NCBI GenBank assembly: GCA_018432935.1
Contig: JAHDSF010000002.1
Location: 62,001-126,000 of the forward strand
Origin: Rhodospirillales bacterium
GTDB taxonomy: Bacteria; Pseudomonadota; Alphaproteobacteria; Rhodospirillales; Shumkoniaceae
DNA length: 64,000 nucleotides
Reading direction: 5' to 3'
Shown here: positions 5,487 through 8,161 of the stretch, in pieces
Numbering within the stretch: position 1 is the stretch's first letter
How the letters are laid out: the number at the start of each line of letters is the position of its first letter
Notes under the pieces: model-generated
The model's input: only the letters and a program-made list of their open reading frames with translations
Told to the model about the DNA's origin: nothing
Database searches by the model: none
Position numbers and translations under genes: made by a program

Positions 5487-5981
5487 ATGTTGAACGAGGC
5501 GCGCACCTTCCTTCACGAGCCGCAGGACTACCAGGACTTCCGTGACAGCGCGCTCCATCAGGCCGAGATCATCTGCGAGCACCGCGGCGTGCGCCTGACC
5601 AAGCTGCGCAAGCGGGTGCTCGAAATCCTGTGGCAACGGAATATCCCGATCGGCGCCTACGACATCCTCGACGTGTTGAAGAAGGAGCGCGCCGGCGCCG
5701 CGCCGCCGACGGTTTACCGCGTGCTGGAGTTCCTGGTCGAGAACGGCCTGGTCCACCGCATCGAGCGGCTCAACGCCTACCTCGGCTGCCGCCGGCCGGC
5801 GGAGCGCCATACCGCTCAGTTCCTGCTCTGCAGGGGCTGCGGCGCCGTGGCCGAGATGAGCGACAAGGGGATCGACGAGGCGATCGACGACGCCGCCCGG
5901 GGGATGGGGTTCGAGCTCAGCAACTCGACGATCGAGCTCGAAGGCCTTTGCCCCCGTTGCCGGAGCCGCGGCGCGGAATAG
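5487..5981 (+). CDS. zur: Fur-family regulator, Zur type
   Basis: A 164-residue DNA-binding regulator. A winged helix occupies residues 30-90 (RLTKLRKRVLEIL, PPTVYRVLEFLVENGL), followed by the dimerisation/metal domain. Two CxxC pairs for the structural zinc are present: Cys115/Cys118 (CRGC) and Cys155/Cys158 (CPRC). His108 and Cys101 are candidates for the sensory site. The arrangement fits zinc-responsive Zur rather than Fur, but no zinc uptake genes lie in the window. The ATG at 5487 is used; upstream in-frame codons read through promoter DNA. The 3' end overlaps the convergent merR-like gene by 65 bp. Confidence 0.82.
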   Translation: MLNEARTFLHEPQDYQDFRDSALHQAEIICEHRGVRLTKLRKRVLEILWQRNIPIGAYDILDVLKKERAGAAPPTVYRVLEFLVENGLVHRIERLNAYLGCRRPAERHTAQFLLCRGCGAVAEMSDKGIDEAIDDAARGMGFELSNSTIELEGLCPRCRSRGAE

Positions 5982-6402
5982 GTGGGTCCGCACCGATCGC
6001 CTCGACGATCGGGCACGGCACGTCTTCGGGCATATGCTCGCAATGGTGAACGAGGGTCCTCATCGTCGCGATGAGCTTGCGAAGCGCCTTCTCCCTCCTC
6101 TGCAGGTCGGTGAGGCGGGCCTGGGCGAGGCTGCGGATACGCGTCCGCTCCTGGGTGCTGTCCAACCTCAGGAGTTCGTTGATCTCGGCCAGGGTAAACC
6201 CGGCGGCCTGACCGTTGCGGATGAACCTTAAGCGGCGCAAAGCCGAGACGTCGTACTGGCGCACCTTGCCGTTCGGCGACGGTGCGGGAACCGGCAGCAG
6301 CCCCTGGCGTTGGTAGAAGCGGATCGTCTCGACGCCGACCCCGGCTGCCTCGGCGAGGCGGCCGATCGGACCCCAGGAAAACTCTTCTTGACTCCGTACC
6401 AT
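5917..6402 (-). CDS. MerR-family regulator related to mercury-type sensors
   Basis: A 161-residue regulator. The N-terminal winged helix (IGRLAEAAGVGVETIRFY) and a long dimerisation helix are clear. By alignment with Tn501 MerR, two of the three metal-binding cysteines are kept (Cys121 and Cys130, in HHCEHMPEDVPCPIV, spacing 9), but the first (MerR Cys82) is replaced by Arg86. A mercury sensor needs all three, so the ligand is probably different. The ATG at 6402 lies inside a perfect dyad, and an ATG at 6453 would add 17 unconserved residues. It is divergent from the DUF4396 gene, its likely target. Confidence 0.8.
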   Translation of the reverse strand: MVRSQEEFSWGPIGRLAEAAGVGVETIRFYQRQGLLPVPAPSPNGKVRQYDVSALRRLRFIRNGQAAGFTLAEINELLRLDSTQERTRIRSLAQARLTDLQRREKALRKLIATMRTLVHHCEHMPEDVPCPIVEAIGADPPIPRRGSGNGGKGLRARSSSC

Positions 6403-6418
6403 GGTACGGAATGTAGAG
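6388..6418 (+). promoter_or_regulatory. MerR-type promoter with perfect 18-bp operator
   Basis: TTGACT (6388-6393) is followed by TGTAGA (6412-6417) with an 18-bp spacer, and TCCGTACCATGGTACGGA at 6393-6410 is a perfect palindrome filling the spacer. A long spacer occupied by a dyad is the hallmark of MerR-activated promoters, where the regulator untwists the DNA. The promoter points at the DUF4396 gene. The same dyad contains the start codon of the divergent merR-like gene, so binding should also affect the regulator's own expression. Confidence 0.75.
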
Positions 6419-6451
6419 AGGCTGCATATCGCTTCCAAGGAGATATGCGCC

Positions 6452-6925
6452 ATGAACGGACAATATCACGATCATCCCGGCGGAGCCTCGCTGAACCGCG
6501 TCGCCGCGAGCGCCACCCTGCACTGCCTCACCGGCTGTGCCATCGGCGAAACCCTCGGCATGGTCATCGGCGTGGCGCTTGGGTTCGGTACCGGGCTTAC
6601 GATAGCCCTTGCCGTCGCCCTGGCGTTCGGGTTCGGCTACGCCTTCACGCTGGCGCCCCTGCTGCGGGCCGGCCTGGGGTGGCCGGCGGCGCTGAAGCTG
6701 GCGCTTGCCGCAGACACGGCGTCGATCACGGTGATGGAGATCGTCGACAACACCATCATGCTGTTCATTCCCGGGGCCATGGACGCCGGGTTGACCGAGT
6801 TTCTGTTCTGGGGCGCTCTGGCTTTGTCCCTCGCGGTCGCCGCTCTGGCCGCATTCCCGGTCAACCGCTGGCTTATCGGGCACGGCCGGGGCCATGCCGT
6901 CGTCCATGCCCACCACCGGCACTGA
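6452..6925 (+). CDS. DUF4396 small membrane protein with His-rich ends
   Basis: A 157-residue membrane protein with about four transmembrane segments. Residues 24-33 read HCLTGCAIGE, the DUF4396 signature with a His and two Cys at the head of the first helix. A second charged-in-membrane motif is SITVMEIVDNT. The termini are His-rich (QYHDH at the start, GHGRGHAVVHAHHRH at the end), which suggests metal binding; this is inference. AAGGAGATATG precedes the ATG at 6452. Control by the adjacent MerR-like regulator through the 6393-6410 dyad is likely. The gene ends at a strong terminator, so regulator and target form a self-contained unit. Confidence 0.75.
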   Translation: MNGQYHDHPGGASLNRVAASATLHCLTGCAIGETLGMVIGVALGFGTGLTIALAVALAFGFGYAFTLAPLLRAGLGWPAALKLALAADTASITVMEIVDNTIMLFIPGAMDAGLTEFLFWGALALSLAVAALAAFPVNRWLIGHGRGHAVVHAHHRH

Positions 6926-6988: not shown

Positions 6989-8161
6989 TCAGAGGCCGGC
7001 CAGGCGCTTCAGCCCGGAGGCGAGGTCTGCGATCAGGTCATCGGCATCTTCCAGCCCGGCATGGATACGCAGGACCGGGCCGGCATGCGGCCAGCGGGTG
7101 GCGCTCCGGGAGGCCTCGGGATGGGCCGGCACAATCAGGCTTTCGTAACCGCCCCAGCTGTATCCGATGCCGAACACCTCGAGCCCGTCGAGCATGGCCG
7201 CCAGCGCCGTCTTCTCGACCGGGCGAAGGACGAAGCTGAACAGCCCGCAGGCCCCCGAGAAATCGCGCTTCCAGAACTCGTGGCCGGGGTTGCCGGGCAG
7301 CGCGGGATGGTAGACGGCCTCCACCTCGGGGCGGCCTTTCAGCCAGGCGGCGAGCTTGAGCCCGGTCGCCTGGTGGCGGTCCATGCGGGCGGCCAGGGTA
7401 CGCAGGCCGCGCAGGCCAAGATAGCAGTCGTCCGGCCCGGCACACGTGCCAAGCTCGCAGGCGGAACCCTTGACGATCTCGAAGGTGGCGCGGTCGGCGC
7501 AGGTGGCGACCCCCAGCATGGCGTCGGAGTGGCCGACCAGGAACTTGGTTGCCGCCTGCAACGAGATGTCGACCCCGTGCTTGAGGGGCTGGAAGAAGTA
7601 GCCGGCGCTCCACGTGTTGTCGATCACCACGACGGCGCCGGCACGGTGGGCGGCGTCGGCTATCGCGGGAACGTCCTGGACTTCGAAGGTGAGGGAGCCG
7701 GGGGATTCAACGAACACGACCCTTGTGGCCGGCTCGATCAGCTCGGCGATGCGGGCGCCGAGCATCGGATCGTAAAAGGTCGTCCGCACTCCGTAGCGCT
7801 TAAGGAACCCCTCGCAGAACCGGCGGGTCGGGAAATAGGCGGTGTCCGCCATCAGCACGTGATCGCCCGCCTTCAGGAGCGCCAGCAGCACCGAGCAGAT
7901 GGCGCCCAGCCCGGACGGATAGGTGACGGTGCCAAAGCCTTGCTCGAGCGCGGCGACGGCCTCTTCGAAGGCAAAGGTGGTCGGGGTCCCGAAGCGCCCG
8001 TAGCGAACCTTGTCGTAGCCCATCTTCGAGGCGCCCTCGAGGGCCGCCAGGGTGGGGAACAGCACGGTCGAGGCATGGTAGACGGGAGGATTGACGATGC
8101 CGTGGTTCTCCGCGGGGTGGTTGCCGGCGTGGGCAACCACGGTATCCTTGCGTTTCTTCAT
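6989..8161 (-). CDS. metC: cystathionine beta-lyase
   Basis: A 390-residue PLP enzyme of the Cys/Met metabolism family. It cleaves cystathionine to homocysteine, pyruvate and ammonia in methionine biosynthesis. The phosphate-binding YPSGLGA loop, Asp181 (VVIDNTWSAGY) and the PLP lysine in QAATKFLVGHSD (Lys206) are present. Other transsulfuration enzymes share this fold, but the NTWSAGYFFQPLKHG segment fits MetC-type lyases. It lies 9 bp downstream of sseA on the same strand and is probably co-transcribed with it. Confidence 0.9.
   Translation of the reverse strand: MKKRKDTVVAHAGNHPAENHGIVNPPVYHASTVLFPTLAALEGASKMGYDKVRYGRFGTPTTFAFEEAVAALEQGFGTVTYPSGLGAICSVLLALLKAGDHVLMADTAYFPTRRFCEGFLKRYGVRTTFYDPMLGARIAELIEPATRVVFVESPGSLTFEVQDVPAIADAAHRAGAVVVIDNTWSAGYFFQPLKHGVDISLQAATKFLVGHSDAMLGVATCADRATFEIVKGSACELGTCAGPDDCYLGLRGLRTLAARMDRHQATGLKLAAWLKGRPEVEAVYHPALPGNPGHEFWKRDFSGACGLFSFVLRPVEKTALAAMLDGLEVFGIGYSWGGYESLIVPAHPEASRSATRWPHAGPVLRIHAGLEDADDLIADLASGLKRLAGL

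Follow-up and report, generated by a model that had tools for sequence, protein, structure and literature searches.

What a MerR-type regulator senses when one of its metal-binding cysteines has been replaced, and what such a regulator controls, are the questions raised by two divergent genes in the window, by which we mean the whole 64-kb stretch of DNA analyzed here. Proteins of the MerR family bind dyads located in promoter spacers of 19–20 bp, repressing transcription without their ligand and activating it with ligand by bending the DNA (PMC9909328). Selectivity for +1 or +2 metals is set by a residue of the other subunit, Ser77 in CueR, Cys77 in CadR, Cys79 in ZntR and Cys82 in MerR (PMC9909328). 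In the window this residue is an arginine, and the facing gene encodes a membrane protein of the DUF4396 family. The first-pass annotation read the two genes as a sensor and effector pair for an undetermined metal or thiol-reactive compound. As a pair for a soft metal that reading is well supported by the data presented herein, and the metal can be narrowed to copper or silver as the most likely. We lean towards reading the locus as a response unit of one regulator and one effector that serves a soft monovalent metal, Cu(I) being the likeliest and Ag(I) or Au(I) further candidates. The regulator family, the DUF and the operator-effector design of MerR systems are all known; what is new is a previously unremarked clade of arginine-bearing regulators and an exchange of partner within it. 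The literature on DUF4396 is close to nil, limited to one paper that names it in passing where it borders a metal-resistance island, and a search with most subscription journals outside it returned no description of the arginine clade or of a DUF4396 function.

Gene arrangement, operator and promoter

The regulator gene (161 aa; 5917–6402, minus strand) faces the DUF4396 gene (157 aa; 6452–6925, plus strand), as annotated in the first pass, and between them lies the sequence TTGACT-CCGTACCATGGTACGGAAT-GTAGAG. The –35 element TTGACT (6388–6393, plus strand) belongs to a promoter directed at DUF4396, and its –10 region (6413–6419, plus strand) can be read either as GTAGAG (6413–6418), which gives a spacer of 19 bp, or as TAGAGA (6414–6419), which gives one of 20 bp. 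In both cases the spacer is filled by the perfect 18-bp dyad TCCGTACCATGGTACGGA (6393–6410), just as had been claimed, and a ribosome-binding site, AAGGAG (6437–6442, plus strand), precedes the DUF4396 gene. The –10 region is a weak match to consensus, at a place where relatives of the regulator mostly have TATA-like hexamers. A sigma-70 scan of the intergenic region for spacers of 16–18 bp found no promoter, as is to be expected when the spacer exceeds 18 bp.

The dyad has the layout of the mer operator, and in sequence and spacing alike it is placed as that operator is, within a promoter spacer of 19 bp. CCGTAC-N4-GTACGG occurs in a single perfect copy in the 5.05-Mb genome, which is the dyad itself. 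The rarity of the palindrome was rejected as evidence in its own right, there being three perfect 18-bp palindromes in the window; the significance of the dyad comes instead from its mer-operator layout in the promoter that serves the gene opposite, and from its conservation in relatives, described below.

The dyad also overlaps the 5' end of the regulator gene, whose ATG start codon (6402–6400, minus strand) lies at the dyad center. Since there is no further start codon inward before the helix-turn-helix, this ATG is the sole feasible start, and the first codons of the regulator (MVRSQ) are therefore encoded by the operator. In many relatives the codon at the dyad center is ATA and the annotated start lies a few codons downstream. 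No ribosome-binding site is visible ahead of the ATG in the window (6400–6445, minus strand), and the minus strand upstream carries TTGGAA-17 bp-TACATT, from which transcription would start near the ATG; this suggests that the regulator message may be leaderless.

At its other end the regulator gene overlaps by 65 bp (5917–5981) the 3' end of a gene for a Fur/Zur-like regulator (5487–5981, plus strand). Its C-terminal extension is mostly antisense to the 3' end of that gene, is not found in relatives, and is probably run-on sequence. Beyond the DUF4396 gene lies one for a PLP-dependent cysteine/methionine enzyme (6989–8161, minus strand), named by eye from its sequence. The copper genes searched for in the window were not found, and to this extent the description of the locus as self-contained stands.

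A MerR clade with arginine in place of a metal ligand

The regulator belongs to the MerR family by its matches to PF13411 (57.4 bits) and PF09278 (49 bits), both above cut-off, and the closest protein of solved structure, in the PDB set, is the MerR of Tn501 (85.8 bits). It falls below the equivalog cut-offs both of mercury MerR (TIGR02051, 103.1 against 150.85 bits) and of CueR (TIGR02044, 70.7 against 147.4 bits). In the alignment to Tn501 MerR, Arg86 (codon at 6145–6147, minus strand), Cys121 and Cys130 correspond to the three Hg ligands Cys82, Cys117 and Cys126, so that the first of these is replaced and the other two are retained, in agreement with the original reading of the sequence. 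The protein likewise lacks the Ser77 and C-x7-C of CueR, having arginine and C-x8-C, and lies outside the CueR clade. Among 317 genomes of the order, no MerR homologue exceeds 43% identity.

Relatives gathered from plasmids and from 385 genomes of the class gave 28 aligned members, the window protein included, that form what we define as the Arg-MerR clade by three properties: arginine at the Cys82 position, the operator TTGACTCCGTAC-N4-GTACGG, and monophyly. The window regulator has all three. All 28 members have the arginine and both loop cysteines, and in a maximum-likelihood tree they occupy one branch (support 99/93) that is sister to the Tn501-type MerR proteins, with CueR located elsewhere. 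At 27 of the 28 loci the facing promoter is TTGACT-CCGTAC-N4-GTACGG, with no more than two of 18 letters changed; TTGACT itself is present in 25, a TATA-like hexamer mostly follows at 19–20 bp, and the control search for the operator pattern among the 385 genomes gave no control matches. The exchange of arginine for cysteine is thus a trait of the whole clade and not a peculiarity of the window gene, and it affects the very residue that is said to set +1/+2 metal selectivity. Within the alphaproteobacterial Arg-MerR clade the window protein sits on a long branch and has a C-x8-C loop where C-x7-C is usual, and because of both features its metal preference may have drifted.

The usual partner of the clade and its genomic company

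Apart from the window regulator the clade has 27 members, and 25 of them directly face a gene for a glutaredoxin-MauE fusion (one copy, at L110, is incomplete). In one of the remaining two (L189) such a gene is close by without facing the regulator, and in the other (genome G320, L129/L181) only an apparent C-terminal end of it, read by eye, is beside the operator. The rest of the facing gene in G320 has apparently been deleted, and a gene for a Met/His-rich protein follows; its reading as CopB had no match in our copper-gene search and it was left out of the copper evidence. The facing gene at L110 (Sinorhizobium meliloti ABS7, pSymA) matches residues 1–99 only and seems broken, and that of S. 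meliloti M162 (L180) is whole. A CcdA/DsbD-like membrane gene (FVEPC[ST]IG) lies downstream of the fusion gene in G691 (L132/L184), and at L118 a gene of similar type comes after a classical MerR.

In S. meliloti the fusion protein is SmGrx3 (SMa0280), whose function, according to a review, remains to be elucidated; it has low deglutathionylation activity, and the review's table gives heat shock as its sole inducing condition and lists no transcription factor (PMC6315971). The Arg-MerR clade is likely to supply the regulator of SmGrx3. Literature searches on DUF4396 with copper regulators and on MerR with MauE gave nothing relevant beyond that review. The genome of the window encodes no SmGrx3-like protein, the best match having 30% identity over 70 residues. 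Since the fusion is the norm of the clade and DUF4396 takes its place opposite the window regulator, we conclude that the partner has been swapped at this locus.

Copper genes are frequent around the clade. Among 22 clade loci read over about 12–16 kb each, 11 have core copper-resistance genes within about 7 kb (multicopper oxidase, CopB, CopC, CopD, CusA/CusF, DUF411 or P1B ATPase); the other half have none close by, and many of the copper-linked loci are on related sphingomonad plasmids. The arrangements vary (CopAB-DUF305-DUF411, Cus-CusF, CopCD, CopABCD, P1B ATPase) and are therefore not copies of one island, even if several still come from these related plasmids. In the annotated clade loci examined, no merA, merT or merP is listed.

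The DUF4396 protein and its neighbors in other genomes

The facing protein matches PF14342 with 143 bits (cut-off 27) and has the conserved HC-x2-G-C motif of the family. Both of its ends are His-rich, as the initial reading had it, and HCLTGC (residues 24–29; 6521–6538, plus strand) lies inside the first of four predicted helices (12–43, 47–72, 77–105 and 117–143). AlphaFold2 models the protein as four long helices packed into a bundle (pLDDT 84.9). A fold search of this model in the PDB gave no match at E ≤ 0.001, so any activity of the protein stands without structural support. Columns invariant in 83 close homologues include His24, Cys25, Gly28, Cys29 and Glu33 as well as Ser91, Met95, Glu96, Trp120 and Pro136; in distant subfamilies Cys25, Gly28, Gly32, Trp120, Pro136 and Asn138 are invariant, and Cys29 is either Cys or Asp. 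A long variant (L144, L150, L165) has extra N-terminal sequence and the motif HCVAGD, with Asp replacing the second Cys. The Cys, Met and His residues in the helices and tails would fit a soft-metal site.

DUF4396 is present in 51 of the 385 genomes of the class and also in many actinobacteria and haloarchaea. At eight loci (L006, L010, L012, L018, L053, L115, L163 and L164) a CueR-type gene, marked by C-x7-C and by Ser as the selectivity residue, is beside or near it; L059, whose MerR-type gene is longer, unrelated and about 0.7 kb distant, was left out. At three of the eight, in alphaproteobacteria (L006, L163 and L164), the CueR-type gene and DUF4396 diverge, and the promoter that reads towards DUF4396 has a spacer of 19 bp: TTGACT-CTCCAGTTACTGGAAACAC-TACGTT and TTGACC-TTCCTGTCACAGGAAAGAT-TAGGGT at L163 and L164, the dyad of L006 being less clear. 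Three small AT-rich genomes of the class (L155, L158 and L159) have a CsoR-type regulator (C-x24-H-x3-C) beside DUF4396. The CsoR-type gene is directly divergent from DUF4396 in L158 and L159, and a cupredoxin-like gene lies between the two in L155. CopA occurs within 6 kb of DUF4396 at 9 of the 80 best loci, compared with about 0.8% per locus expected from a density of three CopA-type genes in 5 Mb (P of about 3e-8, rising to 2e-4 when the background is tripled, the loci not being fully independent). CopA, CueR, CsoR, CopC or CopD is found within 6 kb at 12 of these 80 best loci, with no match at the other 68. The neighbors in these loci were therefore rejected as general proof of a copper role, and the copper claim for DUF4396 rests on the enrichment and on the type of regulator.

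The first-pass annotation had proposed a survey of whether the two genes occur together with the same dyad, and had named lack of conservation of the pair or the dyad in relatives as grounds for refutation. By that measure the outcome is divided. The dyad is kept with the regulator clade, and the exact pairing of an Arg-MerR with DUF4396 was not found beyond the window in the genomes searched: the three other clade-bearing genomes tested have no DUF4396, which is instead often accompanied by other Cu(I) regulators.

A proposed mechanism and its alternatives

The genomic company of the two halves points independently to copper, in that relatives of both accompany copper-resistance genes, and it is on this basis that we regard the locus as a probable copper (or silver) response pair. 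For the inducer, the DNA binding, the activity of DUF4396 and the direction in which metal would move, we infer the following. A MerR-type dimer would occupy the 18-bp dyad within the DUF4396 promoter, whose spacer is over-long, and the apo regulator would keep this promoter silent. Metal held by Cys121 and Cys130 would then cause the DNA to be bent and DUF4396 to be activated, as with MerR and CueR. Two loop cysteines without a third fit linear Cu(I) or Ag(I), and Arg86, replacing the third ligand (Cys82 in MerR, Ser77 in CueR), would disfavor trigonal Hg(II) and tetrahedral Zn or Cd and could compensate for the dithiolate charge. In DUF4396, Cys25 and Cys29, buried Met and acidic residues and the His-rich tails may bind copper and move or hold it. 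Since the dyad covers its start codon, the regulator is likely to curb expression of its own gene.

Any such mechanism must be weighed against the absence of a copper gene beside the window locus and against other readings of the pair. The regulator could sense Hg(II) with two cysteines, and DUF4396 could be an Hg(II) carrier replacing MerT, MerC or MerF; the operator is essentially that of mer, the clade is sister to the Tn501-type proteins, the closest PDB match is a mercury MerR, and linear dithiolate binding of Hg(II) is chemically possible. We nevertheless consider this unlikely, as the third Hg ligand is arginine throughout the clade, the score is under the mercury MerR cut-off, and clade loci have copper genes at half of the sites and, in the annotated loci examined, none of the mer genes noted above. 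Even the C82Y change in Tn501 MerR seriously affects dimerization and Hg binding (PMC5027573). We give the same low weight to a response to thiol or redox stress, in which the cysteine pair would react with oxidants, electrophiles or glutathione and DUF4396 would be a membrane thiol protein. The glutaredoxin-MauE fusion as the usual partner, and the low deglutathionylation activity and heat-shock induction of SmGrx3 (PMC6315971), speak for it, whereas DUF4396 is tied to Cu(I) regulators rather than to redox regulators, and the glutaredoxin-MauE pair is often within copper islands, where a glutaredoxin would fit thiol damage caused by copper.

Slightly less probable still is that the adjacency is accidental, the regulator having lost its original partner and come to face DUF4396 through a rearrangement, the two being coupled in function hardly or not at all. 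The uniqueness of the pair among the genomes searched, the long branch of the regulator, the weak –10 region and the seeming loss of the facing gene in G320 (L129) all speak for such an event. The operator, however, is perfectly kept, DUF4396 begins immediately after it and has a good ribosome-binding site, both reading frames are open and encode the key residues of their families, and in other genomes CueR-type genes stand opposite DUF4396 in this same layout.

Through the window locus and its relatives, DUF4396 gains a role in copper handling that can be tested. More tentatively, the DUF4396 proteins might form a new class of small membrane proteins that transport or retain Cu(I), and the Arg-MerR clade a new class of monovalent-metal sensor, although we think this wider proposal rather doubtful at present. 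Were it true, the DUF4396 class would span several bacterial phyla and the haloarchaea, and the arginine would replace the selectivity ligand and balance the charge at a metal site made of two cysteines.

Comparison with known systems

Among the known systems closest to the window is the MerR of Tn501/Tn21 (mercury resistance) with its operator. Common to both are the protein fold, the sister clade, the divergent arrangement, the two loop cysteines and a promoter whose long spacer holds the operator arms CCGTAC/GTACGG. The window differs in the arginine for Cys82, the score under the MerR equivalog cut-off, the lack of mer genes, the start codon of the regulator within the dyad and the target, DUF4396. 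The CueR/DUF4396 loci (L006, L163 and L164) also have a divergent MerR-family gene, a long-spacer promoter directed at DUF4396 and a two-cysteine metal loop without a third Cys, but the window regulator lies outside the CueR clade and has Arg rather than Ser and C-x8-C rather than C-x7-C, and the operator sequences differ. The Arg-MerR/SmGrx3 (SMa0280) pairs of rhizobia and sphingomonads have the same regulator clade, operator and divergent layout, and about half of them have the start codon in the dyad, as in the window; their effector, however, is the glutaredoxin-MauE membrane protein rather than DUF4396, and their usual loop is C-x7-C. Within PF14342 itself the window protein is an ordinary member, with every residue that is invariant in its close subfamily, and it is only its regulator that is unusual.
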